Shown here: positions 11,910 to 45,704 of the stretch, piece after piece
How positions within the stretch are numbered: the first letter of the stretch is position 1
Layout of the letters: each line of letters starts with the position of its first letter
Source: Faecalibacter rhinopitheci
GTDB taxonomy: Bacteria > Bacteroidota > Bacteroidia > Flavobacteriales > Weeksellaceae
Reading direction: 5' to 3'
Assembly (NCBI RefSeq): GCF_015234135.1
Contig: NZ_JADGIK010000003.1
Location: forward strand, 186,001 to 250,000
Length of the DNA stretch: 64,000 nucleotides
Position numbers and translations under genes: made by a program
The notes under the pieces: generated by a model
The model's input: only the letters and a program-made list of their open reading frames with translations
The model's database searches: none
Told to the model about the DNA's origin: nothing

Positions 11910-12230
11910 ATGCATATATAAAACGAGTTTCATGCTTCATATAATTCATCATGTAATTCTATTAACTTAATTTTTTCCAGTAAAATCCCATTTATTTAAC
12001 ATAATATTCACGTGTAACATTTCATATGAGCAAAATATTCAATTAGTAATTTATTAATTATATAGTCTATAAAGGCTGTGTTTGATAAATATAAATGTTA
12101 TTATATATATAATTATATGTAATTATAGTTCTATTTACAAATGTTTACAAATACAATCAATGTGTTAATTATTTTGGAAATCTTAAAAAAATGTTACAGA
12201 TTTGTATCCAAATGTTATAAAAATTAGACT
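11910..12230 (+). other. AT-rich upstream region of the second SusC gene
   Basis: About 320 bp without a supported gene. It holds ATATAT-like runs and, close to the gene, a TTTG at 12173 and TACAGATTTG at 12195-12204 spaced 18 bp apart, which fits a Bacteroidota -33/-7 pair loosely. Nothing else stands out. Confidence 0.5.
12195..12204 (+). promoter_or_regulatory. Candidate promoter core of SusC gene 2 (TACAGATTTG)
   Basis: It lies 26 nt before the ATG with a TTTG about 18 bp upstream. It parallels the element before SusC gene 1 in wording and position. Confidence 0.4.
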
Positions 12231-15227
12231 ATGAGGAGAAAATTAACATCTTTGAGCTTACTGGCTTTCCTAGGATTAGGAACTCTAGCCTTTGCTCAAG
12301 TAACGGGTGTAGTTAACGACGGTAACAATTTTCCTGAGATGGATGCTGAAGTTGTAGTTAAAGGAACTGATAAAGTTGCTTACACTGATGAAAATGGAAA
12401 ATTTGATATTGATGCTAAAATTGGAGATGTCTTAATTATTAATGGAAAAGAATTTGTAGTTACATCTAATAATTTAGGAATATTAAAATCGGTCTCTGAA
12501 AATGTTGATTTAGATGAGGTGGTAATTACGAGTATCTTCGATGCTCCCTCTAAATCGGGACAAACAGTTGTTACAGGTGAGAGCTTACAACAATTTAATC
12601 CAACATTATCAGTGGATCAAATGTTAGGAGGTAAGGTTTCAGGTCTTACATCTCAAGCTCAAAATGGAGCGCCTGGTGCTACTTCGAACATTACAATTCG
12701 TGGTGCTATGGGATTAGGTGGAGGTAACAAATCACCTTTATTTGTAGTGGATGGTACTTATATGACTGTTACAGACATGAATACTATCAATCCACAAGAT
12801 ATTCAGGATGTTACTGTGCTTAAGGATGCTTCACAATTAGCTATTTATGGTGCTAGAGGTGCGAATGGTGTTATTATTATTAAAACCAAAAGCGCTAAAA
12901 GAAATTCTAAAAACTTTTCATATTCATCTCGTATTGGTTTCACAGAAATGATGAAACAAAATGATATGGATGTAATGGGTTCTAATCAATTGCTAAACTA
13001 TCAAAATGATTTAGCTCAAATTCCTGGAATTGCAGGAGGGGTTGCAAGAACACCTGAACAAATAGCGAATTTATCTAAAATTAATACTGATTGGGATGAT
13101 GCCTTCTTTAAGAATGGTTTAATGACATCTCATTACTTCAGTATGTCGAGTAATACAGATGGAGATTCACAATCGTTCTCTTTAGGGTATGATAAGAATT
13201 CAGGAGCTGTTAACTATTATAAAGGTTTAGACAGAATTACAGGAACATTAAATATGTCATCTAGATTATCTGATAAAGCCAGATATGGAATTAATGTAAA
13301 TGGATCTTACCAAACATTAGATGAACCTAGAGATATTAATAATGGGCAGAATGCTTTTTATAGTGCATTACAAAATAGACCATTTGCAGATGTATATAAA
13401 TTAGATGGTAATGGAGAAATAATCTATAAACCTAATGGTGATCCAACTTTTAACCAATCTGTAAATGCGATGGGTTATAATGCATTAGATGAAATGTATT
13501 ATACAAAAAACCAAACAAGAACATTCAGGGTATATGGATCAGCATTTTTTGAATATGAATTAGCTAAAAATTTATTTGCAAGAACTACATTTGGTGCTAC
13601 TTATAGAAGAACACAATATGAGAGCTTTACAGCTCCTTCAGCAAATTTAATGTCAATTTTAGGTTCTGGAGGTTCTAAAAGTGATCAAAGTATTGATCGT
13701 TTAGACTATAACTGGAGAAATGAGTTGAGTTATATTAAATCATTTGGAGATCATAATTTTAGAGCTACTGTTGCATCTGAATACATTGATCAGTCAAATT
13801 ATTCTATGACATTAAGTTCTCAAGGTTTTCCAAATGATAAACAAGATGTACAAAGTTTAGCTACTACTAAATTACAATCATCAAACACTGCAAGATGGGC
13901 AGTTACTAGATTTGGATACTTAGGGTCGATAAACTATGATTATGCAAAGAAATATTTCATTGATGGTTATATTAGAAGAGATGGAACATCTTTAGCAGGT
14001 CTTGATAATAAATACGGAACTTTCTGGGGAGCATCTGTTGGATGGGATATTGCGAAAGAAGACTTCTTAAAATCAAGTTCATTTTTTAATAGTTTAATGT
14101 TAAAAGCTTCTTATGGTGAAGTTGGGGATGATTCTGGTTTAGCTAGATACTCTAATTTAACATTAATGTCTTTAACAGGAACTTATAACAATCAAGGTAT
14201 TGGAGCACCTTCATTAAATGTTGCAAACCCTCAAACAACTTGGGAAATCAACAAGAAATTAAATGTAGGTTTAGATTTTGTATTATTACAAAGAAGATTA
14301 TCAGGTAATGTATCTTATTTCAAAGATACTCGTACAGATTTCTTATTTAATAAAGAATTACCTAGAGAAACTGGATCTTTTACTACTACTATAAACGCAG
14401 GAGAATTAGTTTCTAGCGGTGTAGAAGTTGAATTGAATTTTGATGTAATTAGTAAAAAAGATTATAGCTTAAGTTTATATGGAACTTTAACAAAGATGAA
14501 ATATAAAATTAATGATCTTAATGGTTTAGACGAGTTAATTGTATCAGGATCTGTAGAAGATATGAAGCATATTAACGGTGGAGCTCCATATCAATTTTAT
14601 ATGGTAAGATTTGCTGGAATTAACAGAGATAATGGTAATGCACAATATTATGATATTGATGGTAATATTACCGAAGTTTATGATGCTAATGACGCGGTAG
14701 CTTTAGATAAATCGCCTATGCCAACATTAACAGGAGGATTTGGGTTAAATGCTAAATTCTATGGTTTTGATTTAAATGCAGATTTTGTATTTAGTGCTGG
14801 AGGTTATACTTACAATAATACTTACCAAATTTTAACAACTCCAACTACAACAAATAATAAAGCTGTACAAGCGGATGATTATTGGAGAAATCCAGGTGAT
14901 GTAACAGAGTTCCAAAAACTAACGTCTGCAGGGTTCAGATACTCGGATCAGTTTTTAGAAAAATCAGATTATATCAACTTTAGAAGTTTATCGTTAGGAT
15001 ATTCTTTCGATAATTTATTGAAAGGTACTGGTGTTAAAGGTGTGAGAGTATTTACTCAAGTACAAAATTTAGCATTATGGACTAAATTCCATGGTAATCC
15101 AATCGTTGGTACCGCTAGTAGTGGTTATGCAGTAGCAGGTGATTCAGGATTCATCGCTAACTCATATTCTTTATTCTCATATCCTAATACGAGAACTTAT
15201 ACGTTAGGATTAAATGTTAATTTCTAA
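12231..15227 (+). CDS. SusC/RagA-family TonB-linked outer-membrane protein (pair 2)
   Basis: A 998-residue SusC homologue. Signal peptide and N-terminal domain (1-90) are close copies of those in the first SusC, but from the TonB-box region (DLDEVVITS, about residue 97) the protein diverges. Plug motifs are present in variant form: TIRGAMGLGGGNKSPLFVVDG, VTVLKDASQLAIYGARGANGV. The barrel fills the rest. It pairs with the SusD gene 9 bp downstream. The differing plug and barrel suggest a different ligand from pair 1, while the shared N-terminus suggests a common TonB or regulatory partner (inference). Confidence 0.95.
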   Translation: MRRKLTSLSLLAFLGLGTLAFAQVTGVVNDGNNFPEMDAEVVVKGTDKVAYTDENGKFDIDAKIGDVLIINGKEFVVTSNNLGILKSVSENVDLDEVVITSIFDAPSKSGQTVVTGESLQQFNPTLSVDQMLGGKVSGLTSQAQNGAPGATSNITIRGAMGLGGGNKSPLFVVDGTYMTVTDMNTINPQDIQDVTVLKDASQLAIYGARGANGVIIIKTKSAKRNSKNFSYSSRIGFTEMMKQNDMDVMGSNQLLNYQNDLAQIPGIAGGVARTPEQIANLSKINTDWDDAFFKNGLMTSHYFSMSSNTDGDSQSFSLGYDKNSGAVNYYKGLDRITGTLNMSSRLSDKARYGINVNGSYQTLDEPRDINNGQNAFYSALQNRPFADVYKLDGNGEIIYKPNGDPTFNQSVNAMGYNALDEMYYTKNQTRTFRVYGSAFFEYELAKNLFARTTFGATYRRTQYESFTAPSANLMSILGSGGSKSDQSIDRLDYNWRNELSYIKSFGDHNFRATVASEYIDQSNYSMTLSSQGFPNDKQDVQSLATTKLQSSNTARWAVTRFGYLGSINYDYAKKYFIDGYIRRDGTSLAGLDNKYGTFWGASVGWDIAKEDFLKSSSFFNSLMLKASYGEVGDDSGLARYSNLTLMSLTGTYNNQGIGAPSLNVANPQTTWEINKKLNVGLDFVLLQRRLSGNVSYFKDTRTDFLFNKELPRETGSFTTTINAGELVSSGVEVELNFDVISKKDYSLSLYGTLTKMKYKINDLNGLDELIVSGSVEDMKHINGGAPYQFYMVRFAGINRDNGNAQYYDIDGNITEVYDANDAVALDKSPMPTLTGGFGLNAKFYGFDLNADFVFSAGGYTYNNTYQILTTPTTTNNKAVQADDYWRNPGDVTEFQKLTSAGFRYSDQFLEKSDYINFRSLSLGYSFDNLLKGTGVKGVRVFTQVQNLALWTKFHGNPIVGTASSGYAVAGDSGFIANSYSLFSYPNTRTYTLGLNVNF

Positions 15228-38492: not shown

Positions 38493-38768
38493 ATGGGGAA
38501 ATATTTTAGAATAACCAATATACTGTTCTTTATTGTTACTGTAATGATGAGTTGTAATACAAATAAGAAGTTAGAGTCTGATAATAAAGAAATAGATTCT
38601 ATTGAAAAAAAACGAGAAGAATTGAAACAGAAGTTCACTCAACAACAAAAAGAAAATGAAAGAAAATTTGATAGTCTACAACTTATTGAAGATTCATTAA
38701 AAAATAAATCAACCTTAAGTGGCTTTGTTGATGAAGCTCCTATATTTAACCAAACTGAAACGAAATAA
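38493..38768 (+). CDS. Small lipoprotein resembling the adjacent subtilase's propeptide
   Basis: A 91-residue lipoprotein. The signal peptide ends at Cys21 (VMMSC). Residues 25-70 are charged and likely coiled coil. Residues 45-50 (KQKFTQ) are identical to residues 28-33 of the subtilase encoded 35 bp downstream. Residues 73-85 (STLSGFVDEAPIF) align with subtilase residues 60-72 (STLAGITDDYIIF), with ungapped matches between (N55/N38, F59/Y42, S61/S44). It therefore looks like a free-standing copy of the protease's N-terminal prodomain. A role as inhibitor or folding helper is inference. Confidence 0.8.
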   Translation: MGKYFRITNILFFIVTVMMSCNTNKKLESDNKEIDSIEKKREELKQKFTQQQKENERKFDSLQLIEDSLKNKSTLSGFVDEAPIFNQTETK

Positions 38769-38803
38769 AATAAATTAAATTAAAAAATTTAACACTAAAA
38801 AGT

Positions 38804-40876
38804 ATGAATAAAAAATTACTACCTCTACTATTAATTACCTTAATTAATTTTACTACAGTAAATGCTCAAACAAAAGAATCTGTTAAGCAAAAATTTACGC
38901 AAGAAACAGCCGCAAATCAAGCCTTATATAATAGTAATAATCCGCAACTAAAAGGTATAGAAAATACAAAATATAATGCCTCTACCTTAGCCGGAATTAC
39001 TGATGATTATATTATTTTTTATACTCAAGATGATATAAGAGCAAATAAAGCATCTAATGCCGATATGCTTCAAAATGGAGAAGTAGGAGATATAAGTTTA
39101 AATGGTGAAAATATGGTTATCTCAATTTTTGATGGAGGTAAGGTGTTTAATACCCATAATGAATTTAAGGATTTAGAAAACGAAGGAAGCTACCGAATTA
39201 ATGATTTAGAAAATGGAGCCCAAGCATTAAGTTCTCATGCTACATCTGTTTCATCGTTAATTGCAGCTCAAGGAGTAGCTAATGTTAACTATGGTGGTGG
39301 TCTTATTGCTAACGCGGCGAAAGGTATTTTACCAAAAGCATTTATAAATCATGCAGGTTTTGCAACTACTGTAAATGGAAGTGTTTATAATAAAATATTA
39401 GAATTTGCAGATCCAATCTCTAATCATTCTTATGGTGTCAATTATGGATGGTCTCAAGAATCAGCTCAAACTGGAACTCGTGGAGCAGGATTTTACTATC
39501 CAGTAAATAGTTCTTCATTTACAGATCCATTACAAACGTATTTTAGTGCGTATTTAGGAAATGATACGAATTATGATTTGATTGTAAGTACAGATCCTAA
39601 TTTAACGATTGTTAAATCTTCAGGGAATTATTTTGGTACAGGACCAAGCAACAATCCTAACCTACCAATATACAGATATCAAAGTGCCGCAGCAGGATAT
39701 GTACCTTTTAATGAAGGAGAAATTATTCCTGCTGATAACTGTTCTACAGATGCATATTGTATTGGGACAGGATCTTTAGCTAAAAATATTATTGTTGTAG
39801 GTGCAGTAAACTTACCTAGCCAAACAAACGATTTTAGAGTTACAAAAACATCCGATATTATCCGATCTAGTTATAGTAGTGTTGGACCTCGTAAAGATGG
39901 AGCTATAAAACCTGACGTGGTAGCTGTAGGAACATCTGTAATATCTGCTGGTTCTACTGCTGTAAATTCTTATTCAGCAGGTAGTGGAACATCTTACTCA
40001 GCACCGAAAGTAACAGGAATAATTGGTGCTCTAAATCAATTAAAAAGAGTTTTAATAAATGATGCATCGTATGACTTATTTGCTGATGAATCTAAAGCTT
40101 ATGTTATTCACTCTGCAATGGAAGCAGGAGACTATGATGGACCTGACAACTGGTTTGGATGGGGAATGGTAGATGCAAAAGCCGCCGCAGAATTAGTTTT
40201 ATCTACAAATAATGGCGAAAATATTTATGAAAGAAACGAAAAAGTTTCAGGTACAGATTACGAAAAAATTGTTACTGCTAAAGAAGGAGAAGATTTAAAA
40301 GTTACAATCACTTGGATTGATACGGCAGCAAGACCTACATCAAATCCTACACAAGATACAACTTCAAAATTAGTAAACGATTTAGATTTAAGAATCATAG
40401 ATTTGGAAGATGGCACAGTACATATGCCTTGGAAATTAGACTTAGCAAATGTAAGTGGAGCTGCAGTAAAAGGAGATAATAATGTGGATAATGTGGAGCA
40501 AGTTTTAGTTAAAAATCCTATTGCTGGTAGAAAATATAAAATTGTTGTTTCTAATAAAGGGCAACTTGTAGATTATGATGGAATAGAAATCAAACAAAAT
40601 TATGTGATGATTGCAACCGGAGCAGGATCTTATTTATCTACTAACGATTTAGTTTCTAAAAATTCAGTATCTATTTACCCGACAGTTACAAAAGATGTAG
40701 TAAATGTGAAATCAACATCTAAAATTGACAAAATTGAGATTGTGGATTTAACAGGACGTGTAATTTCAACTTCTAAGAAAGATGTTGTAAATGTTTCATC
40801 TTTATCAAGTGGAATTTATATTATTAACATAACAACAAATGAAGGTGTAACTTCTAAAAAGTTCATTAAACAATAA
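38804..40876 (+). CDS. Type IX-secreted S8 (subtilisin-like) serine protease
   Basis: A 690-residue secreted protease. Signal peptide 1-21 (VNAQ), N-terminal prodomain-like region 23 to about 90, S8 catalytic domain about 100-465. The triad is visible: Asp110 in ISIFDGG, His145 in SSHATSV and Ser397 in GTSYSAP. A beta-sandwich P-domain-like region (about 470-610) follows. The last 75 residues form a type A type IX sorting domain (SVSIYPTVTKDVVNV, IVDLTGRVI, SGIYIINI, KKFIKQ end). It is co-oriented with the propeptide-like lipoprotein gene. Substrate unknown. Confidence 0.93.
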   Translation: MNKKLLPLLLITLINFTTVNAQTKESVKQKFTQETAANQALYNSNNPQLKGIENTKYNASTLAGITDDYIIFYTQDDIRANKASNADMLQNGEVGDISLNGENMVISIFDGGKVFNTHNEFKDLENEGSYRINDLENGAQALSSHATSVSSLIAAQGVANVNYGGGLIANAAKGILPKAFINHAGFATTVNGSVYNKILEFADPISNHSYGVNYGWSQESAQTGTRGAGFYYPVNSSSFTDPLQTYFSAYLGNDTNYDLIVSTDPNLTIVKSSGNYFGTGPSNNPNLPIYRYQSAAAGYVPFNEGEIIPADNCSTDAYCIGTGSLAKNIIVVGAVNLPSQTNDFRVTKTSDIIRSSYSSVGPRKDGAIKPDVVAVGTSVISAGSTAVNSYSAGSGTSYSAPKVTGIIGALNQLKRVLINDASYDLFADESKAYVIHSAMEAGDYDGPDNWFGWGMVDAKAAAELVLSTNNGENIYERNEKVSGTDYEKIVTAKEGEDLKVTITWIDTAARPTSNPTQDTTSKLVNDLDLRIIDLEDGTVHMPWKLDLANVSGAAVKGDNNVDNVEQVLVKNPIAGRKYKIVVSNKGQLVDYDGIEIKQNYVMIATGAGSYLSTNDLVSKNSVSIYPTVTKDVVNVKSTSKIDKIEIVDLTGRVISTSKKDVVNVSSLSSGIYIINITTNEGVTSKKFIKQ

Positions 40877-42456: not shown

Positions 42457-44106
42457 ATGAATAAATATTTTGGACTTTTATTGCTTGTATGGGGTACATT
42501 TTCATGTGTATCGAAAGAAAAATTCAATCAACATTTGGATCAACCTTTAAGTGTAGAAGCGTTGAGAAAAGATGTGGATTTTACTACGAATAAATTGCTG
42601 AAAAAACATGTGAATTTGGATTGGTACTATCCCGAAGAGGTGATAAAATTCCGTTTGGATAGTTTTAAATCGACCATTACTCAGCCGATGGTTCCCAATG
42701 ATTTTGCCATGCATTTGATGCAAGTTGTTTCTAGTTTTGGGCATGGGCATACGTATGTTTCGCCACTTGATTACAAGTTAACAAAAGAAGCCAAAAAAAA
42801 GTATAAAGGATCGAAGAATCCATTGAAATTATTGGCCTTTAAAAATGCTGAAAATCGTATTTTTTTGGATAAGAATTATACGAAAGATTCCACTTTATTG
42901 GTTCATTCAGAACTCTTAGCTATTGATGGGTATTCTTATCAAGATTTTATTCAAAAGAATCCAAATATTCGTGCGAGTGATGGGTATACAAAAGTGTTGA
43001 ATCAAAATTATAATGCGCCATATTATATCAATTACGTCGATCGTAAGTTGAAAGTGAGAGATTCTGTTGTATTAACCTTGAAGAAGAATGATTCAGTTTT
43101 TCAACATGTTTTATATCGTGAATTAAAAAAAGATAAACAGAAAAAAGATAAACAGAAAAAAGATACACTCACTTCCAAAAAAGATTCGATTCAGTCTGTT
43201 AAAGATCATCTGAAAATTGAAAAAAGAAAATTAACGAAAGCGGAACGATTAAAAGTAAAAGATAGTCTACAATTAGAACGTAAAATCAATAAATACTATG
43301 CTTTTGATCGAGTGAAAAAGAGATACAATCGTGCCTTGTATTTTCCTAATCCACAAGATTCAACAACTGTGGTACTCGACATCAATTCATTTACTTTAGG
43401 AATTCATAAGAAAGCGTATGATCATATTTTTGATTCTATACAAAGACTAGGTACAAAAAATTTAATCTTAGATTTAAGAGAGAATAGTGGAGGATATCCT
43501 GAAGATATCAATCATCTGTTTGCTTATTTGACAACGAAGAGCGAGCCTCAAATGGTGATTGATCCCTTGTTGAAAGTGAAATCGAAATGGACTTTATTTT
43601 CTCGATTTTATCGTAAACCAAATCCATTTTCACATACAATATTCTTACCTTTAATTGTTTATAAATCAACGGAGTCATTTTTTCGTACAACGAAAATGGA
43701 TGGCGCATATTATTATAACGACGGTCGCAAGAAAAATTTTCTTTTCAAAGATAAGAACCGTTATGAAGGGAATTTGTATGTACTAACGAGTGGGAAAAGT
43801 TATTCTGCAGCCAGTTTAATTTCGTCTGCATTATATGCTGAAGGTAAAGCTATTTTTGTAGGTGAAGAAACTGGAGGAGATTATAATGGAACAGTGGCAG
43901 GTTATTCAGAAGATTATAAACTTCCCCATTCGAAAATAAAAATTCTAATTCCTCAAATGGTCTTTCAACCGAATCAAACACGAGAATTGAAAGGGAGAGG
44001 CGTGTTCCCTCATCAGGAAATACCCTATCATTTCTCAGATTTTATGCAAGAACATGATCCTCAATTGGATTGGATTTTAGAAGATATAAAGAAGAAAAAA
44101 CAATGA
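42457..44106 (+). CDS. S41-family peptidase lipoprotein 1
   Basis: A 549-residue lipoprotein with Cys17 (GTFSC). The C-terminal half (about 300-535) is an S41 (C-terminal-processing/tricorn-like) protease core: LILDLRENSGGYPEDI, LTSGKSYSAASLIS with the likely catalytic Ser, and GEETGGDYNGTVAG. A lysine-rich low-complexity insert (KKDKQ repeats, residues about 224-240) is absent in its neighbour. It has no PDZ domain that I can see. Tandem paralogue of the next gene, with which it overlaps by 4 bp (ATGA). Confidence 0.85.
   Translation: MNKYFGLLLLVWGTFSCVSKEKFNQHLDQPLSVEALRKDVDFTTNKLLKKHVNLDWYYPEEVIKFRLDSFKSTITQPMVPNDFAMHLMQVVSSFGHGHTYVSPLDYKLTKEAKKKYKGSKNPLKLLAFKNAENRIFLDKNYTKDSTLLVHSELLAIDGYSYQDFIQKNPNIRASDGYTKVLNQNYNAPYYINYVDRKLKVRDSVVLTLKKNDSVFQHVLYRELKKDKQKKDKQKKDTLTSKKDSIQSVKDHLKIEKRKLTKAERLKVKDSLQLERKINKYYAFDRVKKRYNRALYFPNPQDSTTVVLDINSFTLGIHKKAYDHIFDSIQRLGTKNLILDLRENSGGYPEDINHLFAYLTTKSEPQMVIDPLLKVKSKWTLFSRFYRKPNPFSHTIFLPLIVYKSTESFFRTTKMDGAYYYNDGRKKNFLFKDKNRYEGNLYVLTSGKSYSAASLISSALYAEGKAIFVGEETGGDYNGTVAGYSEDYKLPHSKIKILIPQMVFQPNQTRELKGRGVFPHQEIPYHFSDFMQEHDPQLDWILEDIKKKKQ
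43126..43165 (+). repeat. 15-bp in-frame tandem repeat in S41 peptidase gene 1
   Basis: About 2.7 copies of aaaaaagataaacag, each coding Lys-Lys-Asp-Lys-Gln. It adds basic low-complexity residues and could change copy number without shifting the frame. Confidence 0.85.
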
Positions 44107-45704
44107 AAATAAAGCATTATATCGTATTGGGATTTTTAATTCTGATTTCAACTGGTTGTTTATCAGTTGAGCGATATAATGCGCATTTGGAACGTGATCT
44201 CACGGTTGAACAACAACTAAAAGATATTGAATTTGTTCACCGGAAATTAAAAAAGAATCATCCCAAATTGGATTGGTATGTTTCGCAAGAAATGATTGAT
44301 TTTCGTTTTGATAGTTTAAAAGCTACGATTAAACAAACATTGAAACCCAACGAATTTTTCTTGAAATTACAACCCGTAGTGAGTGAAATTCGACATGGTC
44401 ATACGGATGTGATGCCTTTGTTTCCGAGGTATCCTAAACATGAATTAAAACGCATCAAAGATTCATCTGGACCATTGAGTCAATTGACGACCTTTTGGCA
44501 AAATGATTCTTTGTATTTGGTACAGACCAAATCAAAAGATTCATTGGTAAAACTAGGTGCAGTTATTCTTAGTATTGATTCAATCGCTCCCGCTTACTAT
44601 TTAAATAAATTTCATCATACATTTTATGGTGATGGATTTAATACCTCTTATTTTCAAAACCGGCTAAATCGTACATTCTTTACCTACTATTATAATTTAG
44701 AACATCCCATCAAGGATTCTGTTTTATTCGAATTATCCTATCAGGGAAAAAAATATCCGTATTGGGCAAAACGTACGTTTAAAAAAGGAGAAGAAAATAA
44801 AAAAATAGCCGATAAAAAAGATACGATTCGGGTTCAAATGCCAAAGAAAGTAGCAAAAGTTAATCCGTTGAAATCGTATGAGTTTTCATTCATTAAAAGC
44901 AATAAGACTTACGCCAGAGTATTATCGTTTCCTACTAATGATAGCACCTTTGCCGTGCTCCGTGTAAGTACTTTTAGTTATGGCGATTATACAAAGGATT
45001 ATCAAAAGATTTTTGAATTGATAAAAACACACAAGGTAAAAAATCTGGTGTTGGATTTAAGAAATAATGGTGGTGGACGATTAGCTGATGCTTTTCAATT
45101 GTTTTCTTATTTTGTACCTGATCAAGAAGAATTTTTAGCCAAACAATCCATCGTAAAACCTTCAGCATTTCAGCATGCTATTGTATCCCTTTTCTCTAAA
45201 TGGTCTCGGCCAATAGTGTATCCAATATCATTGTTGTCTCATTTGATCACCCGAAAGGACGACACGGGATATTATATTAAGCCACAATTAAGTCGCATTA
45301 GAAATAATCAACCTGATCATCCTTACACCGGAAATCTGTACGTAATTATTAATGGAGGTTCGTTTTCTGCGTCATCTTTGATTTCATCTAATTTAAAAGG
45401 TTTTAACCGCGCTTACTTTGTGGGTGAAGAAACGGGGGGCGATGCCAATGGAAGTGTGGCGGGACTAATGCCGAAATATGAATTGCCTCATTCGAAACTA
45501 AAGCTGCATATTGGTACCGTATTTTTAGAGCCTAAATACTATCAAACGGAAGTAAAGGGCCACGGTATATTTCCAAATAAAGAAATTAAAACGACTTTAG
45601 AAGATCGTATAAAAAATATTGATCCGCAATTGCGATGGATCATTACAGATGTGAAACAGAACAATAAAGCCTTACGTCAAATTATACCTCATACTACCCC
45701 ATAA
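44103..45704 (+). CDS. S41-family peptidase lipoprotein 2
   Basis: A 533-residue lipoprotein. I start it at 44103, overlapping the previous stop as ATGA, which gives a good signal peptide with Cys19 (ISTGC); the upstream ATG at 44070 lies inside the previous gene. The S41 core is LVLDLRNNGGGRLADAF, IINGGSFSASSLISSN (catalytic Ser) and GEETGGDANGSVAG. It parallels the first peptidase along its whole length (RYNAHLERDLTVE near the N-terminus, LDWY), so the pair arose by tandem duplication. Acts on the cell envelope outside the inner membrane. Confidence 0.85.
   Translation: MKIKHYIVLGFLILISTGCLSVERYNAHLERDLTVEQQLKDIEFVHRKLKKNHPKLDWYVSQEMIDFRFDSLKATIKQTLKPNEFFLKLQPVVSEIRHGHTDVMPLFPRYPKHELKRIKDSSGPLSQLTTFWQNDSLYLVQTKSKDSLVKLGAVILSIDSIAPAYYLNKFHHTFYGDGFNTSYFQNRLNRTFFTYYYNLEHPIKDSVLFELSYQGKKYPYWAKRTFKKGEENKKIADKKDTIRVQMPKKVAKVNPLKSYEFSFIKSNKTYARVLSFPTNDSTFAVLRVSTFSYGDYTKDYQKIFELIKTHKVKNLVLDLRNNGGGRLADAFQLFSYFVPDQEEFLAKQSIVKPSAFQHAIVSLFSKWSRPIVYPISLLSHLITRKDDTGYYIKPQLSRIRNNQPDHPYTGNLYVIINGGSFSASSLISSNLKGFNRAYFVGEETGGDANGSVAGLMPKYELPHSKLKLHIGTVFLEPKYYQTEVKGHGIFPNKEIKTTLEDRIKNIDPQLRWIITDVKQNNKALRQIIPHTTP

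Follow-up and report, generated by a model that had tools for sequence, protein, structure and literature searches.

What is a small lipoprotein doing directly upstream of a secreted subtilase whose propeptide it resembles? The question is raised by a 64,000 nt stretch of Faecalibacter rhinopitheci DNA (contig NZ_JADGIK010000003.1, positions 186,001–250,000 of the forward strand; hereafter 'the window'), from a Weeksellaceae genome of 2.89 Mb. Between rpsP, on the minus strand, and a gene for an HD-domain hydrolase (PF01966), two plus-strand genes follow one another. The first encodes a lipoprotein of 91 aa (P0001, 38493..38768; located from the list of open reading frames (ORFs), its translation and profile matches), and the second an S8 protease of 690 aa (P0002, 38804..40876) with a C-terminal sorting domain of the type IX secretion system (T9SS). 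Sequence and profile comparisons indicate that the lipoprotein is diverged from, but homologous to, the propeptide at the N-terminus of KP-43-type S8 proteases with T9SS tails. It possesses a lipobox and, as the original prediction had it, contains no protease domain.

The resemblance was noticed through two shared motifs, both of which are present. KQKFTQ occupies residues 45–50 of the lipoprotein and 28–33 of the protease, and STLxGxxDxxxIF occupies residues 73–85 and 60–72, respectively, with identical inner spacing; the motifs lie 28 residues from each other in the former protein and 32 in the latter. In a six-frame search of the whole genome with the lipoprotein, the sole match besides itself was the N-terminus of the neighbouring S8 protease (E 0.0026). 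The key hidden Markov model (HMM) was built from 33 S8 N-termini, all from other genera and none from the genus of the window. It scores the window lipoprotein (genome G000) at 23.7 bits (E 8.8e-6 at Z=3000) and that of a second genome of the genus (G004) at E 5.6e-4. Out of 3,281 short ORFs from 248 loci, the best unrelated one has E 0.25. None of 20,000 composition-preserving shuffles reached the real score for G000 (best 16.2 bits), and likewise none of 20,000 for G004. The lipoprotein of G010 is marginal, with 42 of 20,000 shuffles reaching its score, and the shortened lipoproteins of G001 and G006 score non-significantly. In the reverse direction, a profile of the mature parts of four lipoproteins, run over 316 genomes of the family, retrieved lipoproteins and then almost only S8 N-termini, approximately 100 of them, in open frames of 690–760 aa (best E 1.8e-9). 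Additionally, a hairpin motif, L-x-G-F-x4-P-x-F, is common to the lipoprotein and the propeptides and lies outside the helix. The I9 label attached to the original prediction did not survive: neither the lipoprotein nor the protease has an I9 match in Pfam or NCBIfam at E up to 10, and the paper on the related protease SpBcA likewise finds no similarity to I9 (PMC11982257). Searches of Pfam and NCBIfam with the lipoprotein gave sub-threshold noise only, and solved structures searched with the propeptide profile gave no credible match.

Whether the lipoprotein copies the propeptide of its neighbour, as first proposed, is a separate matter. The propeptide homology is real, but S8 N-termini of other genera match the lipoprotein as well or better. 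Among 100 S8 N-termini, the lipoprotein's own neighbour ranks 2nd in G000, 2nd in G010, 65th in G004 and 46th in G386, a genome from another genus of the family. The rankings indicate paralogy with the family propeptide and not descent as a copy of that of the adjoining protease. Tracking of the neighbour's propeptide by gene conversion or pairwise coevolution was also considered and, with these ranks, is not general. The lipoprotein fits the family consensus (L-x3-F-x2-Q-x3-N-x2-K-F-D ... L-A/S-G-F-x4-P-x-F) better than do several protease propeptides of its own genus. The latter reach 21–53 bits with the family profile, compared with a family median near 100, a gap inflated because part of the family set sat in the training alignment.

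The protease itself is a T9SS cargo of the KP-43 subfamily of S8. It matches PF00082 (E 1.9e-18), PF18962 (E 3.7e-10) and TIGR04183 (E 2.4e-11), the last two over a type A sorting domain at residues 624–690 (40673..40873). KP-43 (1wmd) is its top match in both sequence and fold, KP-43 and SubHal being its closest solved relatives, and the T9SS core protein SprA (sprA) is encoded in the window genome. The propeptide is placed at residues 22–85 (38867..39058), with its end set by aligning ASN85-A86, by motif, with the TSNA site at which SpBcA of Bergeyella cardium cuts itself (PMC11982257); the two sites probably correspond, and the Asn is nearly invariant across the family. According to a predicted structure the SpBcA propeptide, which is reported to be inhibitory, runs through the active site, and SpBcA lacking it is inactive, possibly through misfolding (PMC11982257). 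From the alignments and that work, the stretch DIRANKASN (39032..39058) is expected to cross the active site of the window protease and to hold its cleavage site. In the model of the protease, of low to moderate confidence, the propeptide forms a helix (24–43) and two hairpin strands (62–65 and 70–72).

How much of this propeptide the lipoprotein has kept can be followed along its length. A signal peptide with the lipobox cysteine (residues 1–21, VTVMMS-C; 38493..38555) precedes a propeptide-like region, at residues 40–89 by the HMM alignment (38610..38759), which AlphaFold presents as a long helix followed by a beta-hairpin. The AlphaFold model has a helix at 3–69 and strands at 74–79 and 82–86 (predicted template modelling score, pTM, 0.36), and the strands fall on the same aligned residues as those of the S8 propeptide; since S8 propeptides were contained in the input alignment, this structural agreement is not independent, and is weak. 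The window lipoprotein ends 6 residues past the hairpin (PIF strand), some 7 residues before reaching the cleavage-site motif, and the DIRANKASN stretch is absent from it in the alignments. It appears to retain the docking, helix–hairpin part of the propeptide and to be without the part expected to occupy the active site and undergo cleavage. By inspection, the leader is hydrophobic and ends in S/G/A/Q-C in every copy. The surface-lipoprotein export signal of Bacteroidota is K-(D/E)2 or SDDFE at positions +2 to +6 (PMC5080379). An acidic signal of this kind is found in none of the copies, the mature N-termini after the cysteine reading NTNKK (+2 to +6 in the window), QQKNQ, KNREV, NSNKK and others; the periplasmic face is therefore the expected location.

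The pair is not confined to the window. The genus set of 14 genomes includes Empedobacter falsenii, Faecalibacter macacae, Chishuiella changwenlii and Weeksellaceae MIP2422, and in five of them (G000, G001, G004, G006 and G010) the lipoprotein and S8 genes stand together at the rpsP–HD site, with the lipoprotein shortened in two (G001 and G006). The genes are separated by 8–35 bp (35 bp in the window, 38769..38803; 8–30 bp in the four relatives) and are probably co-transcribed. No promoter motif TANNTTTG was seen on the coding strand immediately 5′ of the lipoprotein gene, a result that is uninformative. At the same site, the Chishuiella genome (G012, L058) lacks the lipoprotein and has two S8 genes in tandem, both full-length, whose propeptides have drifted strongly. 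In MIP2422 (G005, L063) a lipoprotein of 54 aa (oriented 12222-12386) is encoded 16 bp upstream of two tandem S8 genes; it has no detectable similarity to the propeptides and is possibly an unrelated replacement at the same position. The G005 site is enlarged by several kb and includes a transposase-like fragment. The remaining seven genomes have neither an S8 nor a lipoprotein gene between rpsP and the HD gene.

Outside the genus, G386 encodes a lipoprotein of 93 aa, reading ...EDLQKQHEENLRKFDSLHGGDLTEAEKRQRDSLAGYIGNQPVFHQS..., 108 bp downstream of an S8 gene (the pair lies at L114:4178-6664). An S8 N-terminus HMM built without this lipoprotein or its neighbour matches it with E 1.4e-5; its tail is longer than that of the window lipoprotein but has no DIRANKASN-type motif. 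The order recA-htpG-S8-lipoprotein is unlike that of the window in both neighbourhood and arrangement, the lipoprotein gene lying downstream rather than upstream. A similar recA-S8 contig in a metagenome-assembled genome, Chryseobacterium sp. BP8.2 (L174), ends just past the S8 gene. No further short homologues were seen in 395 genomes of the order. All four clearly homologous short ORFs, from several hundred genomes searched, adjoin an S8 gene of the KP-43-type family. The original prediction had proposed a search for the pair in other Bacteroidota; the adjacency holds in the five genus genomes and reappears in a second genus.

Substitution patterns indicate that both ORFs are under purifying selection. 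Between lipoproteins the proportion of non-synonymous differences (pN) is well below that of synonymous ones (pS), for example 0.33 against 0.89 for G000–G004, and the corresponding rate ratio (dN/dS) is 0.28 for G001–G006. Where measurable, dN/dS is approximately 0.2–0.7 for the lipoprotein and 0.1–0.4 for S8, the lipoprotein evolving somewhat faster, although the values are rough because dS is near saturation. In a tree of 76 columns the four lipoproteins group together (support 95/95). A constraint placing the G386 lipoprotein with its own S8 was not rejected (approximately unbiased test, p-AU 0.33), and given the long branches and few columns a single origin of the four lipoproteins is only likely.

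The explanation favoured here is that the lipoprotein is a trans-acting, periplasm-facing relative of the propeptide, which docks on the zymogen and helps its folding and/or latency before T9SS export; we regard it as about evenly poised between right and wrong. It draws on the homology, the adjacency in two genera, the selection, the lipobox and the missing active-site segment, from which we infer binding of lipoprotein to protease, on the periplasmic side, with a latency or chaperone effect. Also in its favour are the differing neighbourhoods and gene order of the two genera, the short intergenic distances in the genus of the window, the missing acidic export signal, the modelled helix and hairpin, the presence of SprA, and the SpBcA propeptide, which is reported to inhibit and without which that enzyme is inactive (PMC11982257). 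A descendant of an S8 propeptide would have become a stand-alone, membrane-anchored protein encoded beside the protease. Exported by Sec and then lipidated, it would remain on the periplasmic face, and its helix–hairpin would dock at the site used by the protease's own propeptide. Once docked, it would aid folding of the zymogen and/or keep it latent until the T9SS carries it across the outer membrane. Unlike the built-in propeptide, the lipoprotein would not be removable by self-cleavage because the cleavable active-site stretch is missing. A plug of the classical I9 style is unlikely, as the lipoprotein does not extend into the segment that crosses the active site; its most likely role would be that of a holding factor or docking chaperone, not of a plug that resembles a substrate.

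Several observations weigh against a zymogen-docking role. In the G001 and G006 lipoproteins a loss of about 20 residues has taken strand 1 of the hairpin with it, and their match is no longer significant. Approximately 130 S8 loci of other Weeksellaceae have no lipoprotein, so it is not only rare but dispensable in general. Some long-helix lipoproteins are structural, or have no role with proteases at all. A further step, tentative and somewhat doubtful, is that the prodomain has been split, a second, lipid-anchored protein having taken over in trans part of the propeptide function of a T9SS protease. The protease propeptides have drifted far in the genus of the window, while residues typical of the family are kept in the lipoprotein; on this reading it would be a membrane-bound chaperone dedicated to the zymogens of type IX cargo.

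The main rival to zymogen docking is a potempin-like inhibitor or immunity lipoprotein, because potempins show that lipoprotein inhibitors occur beside T9SS proteases and because stand-alone propeptides can inhibit potently (PMC6993865). By analogy with Spi-SpeB or SUB1-ProM-SUB1, such a protein would bind the mature active protease, whether periplasmic or re-entering, and block it. The gene arrangement is the same as in the potempin/KLIKK pairs of T9SS bacteria (PMC4404884, PMC7296668). However, the lipoprotein stops short of the cleavage-site motif and has no DIRANKASN stretch, which lies at the active site in the family; an inhibitor of this build would therefore have to act via an exosite or its own short tail, and we consider it unlikely. 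Alternatively, the lipoprotein could be the relic of a tandem S8 duplication, an upstream copy, now without a protease domain and with an acquired lipobox, that drifts without function. Tandem S8 genes at the same site in G012 and G005 fit this account, as does the partial deletion of the propeptide-like part in two species. Yet intact short ORFs persist in five species with synonymous change in excess, the lipobox is kept in every copy, a second genus also carries the lipoprotein, no S8 remnants lie downstream and the four clear lipoproteins form one group in the tree, all of which makes a relic quite improbable. A tether would hold the protease, or a precursor of it, at the membrane, as proposed for PrcB with PrtP in the Treponema dentilisin system; there is a precedent in a small lipoprotein whose gene precedes that of a subtilase and on which the subtilase depends (PMC8167434). 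The long helical stalk of the lipoprotein model would suit such a role, but the surface-export signal is absent. T9SS sorting domains, moreover, already have a route of their own by which cargo is attached to the surface or released, and a tether is accounted decidedly improbable. Non-homology, that is, a charged helical lipoprotein resembling a helical propeptide by composition, is a very slim prospect: the charged helix makes up much of the match, and the shortened versions and G010 are weak on their own, but the idea is already largely refuted by the G000 and G004 shuffles, the score of the next unrelated ORF, the S8 N-termini retrieved in reverse and the motif shared beyond the helix.

Other features of these loci were noted in passing. 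Two neighbouring S41-peptidase genes (PF03572) lie at 42457-45704 of the window, the N-terminus of the first (42457-44106) being of lipoprotein type; S41 lipoprotein genes related to them differ in copy number at this locus between genomes of the genus. In G004, G006 and G008 (L052, L053, L061), though not in the window, the HD gene is separated from S8 (or rpsP) by a metallophosphatase/5′-nucleotidase-like gene, which is broken into two frames in G006. In Chryseobacterium indologenes CI_885 (L208:1600 region) a 39-aa ORF, consisting of a broken-off S8 signal peptide and propeptide start, is located about 2.4 kb upstream of an intact S8 gene, an example of true tandem S8 decay.

The means by which T9SS bacteria silence powerful secreted proteases in the periplasm are understood only in part. 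A lipid-anchored propeptide relative beside its protease could serve as a simple test case for zymogen handling in type IX export, and shows how a propeptide of a non-I9 family can evolve directly into a free partner protein. The pairing rule, by which short lipoproteins match the propeptide of the adjoining protease, could reveal more protease partners.

Each half of the arrangement is already known, as lipoprotein partners of secreted proteases and as stand-alone subtilase propeptides. The original prediction knew of no described example. This holds for the exact combination, in that a literature search, with most subscription journals outside its reach, found no report of a lipid-anchored homologue of a protease's own non-I9 propeptide; it does not hold for inhibitor lipoproteins encoded ahead of T9SS proteases, which are represented by the potempins of Tannerella (PMC4404884, PMC7296668). 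SpBcA and SpBcB of B. cardium are likewise KP-43-subfamily T9SS cargo with a non-I9, inhibitory propeptide needed for active enzyme, but there the propeptide is covalent and no separate lipoprotein copy is described (PMC11982257). Stand-alone mimics of subtilase propeptides include SUB1-ProM (Plasmodium), Toxoplasma MIC5, P. ostreatus PoIA1, the yeast peptidase B inhibitor and Arabidopsis SPI-1; the SUB1-ProM gene also adjoins subtilase genes, and its tail is modelled in the active-site groove (PMC6993865). A separate propeptide-like gene beside a subtilase is likewise found here. A small inhibitor gene is linked to a secreted protease in Spi-SpeB (Streptococcus) and in Bfi/Bti beside C10 proteases (Bacteroides), where some Bti proteins are lipoproteins and the genes lie up- or downstream of the protease; these proteases are, however, cysteine proteases, and Bfi/Bti are staphostatin-like, not propeptide-like (PMC3462683). 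PrcB of Treponema denticola dentilisin is a lipoprotein encoded upstream of the subtilase with which it interacts, but is 23 kDa in size, with no homologues reported outside oral treponemes and no propeptide similarity reported (PMC8167434). The potempins of Tannerella forsythia share with the window a small lipoprotein gene directly upstream of a T9SS-secreted protease, of the KLIKK group, and are stated to inhibit the co-expressed protease (PMC4404884, PMC7296668). Compared by description only, they are six lipoproteins that lack mutual sequence similarity and are not described as propeptide-derived. The adjacency of a small lipoprotein gene and a T9SS protease gene is common to both systems, the lipoprotein gene lying upstream in five genus genomes and downstream in G386.
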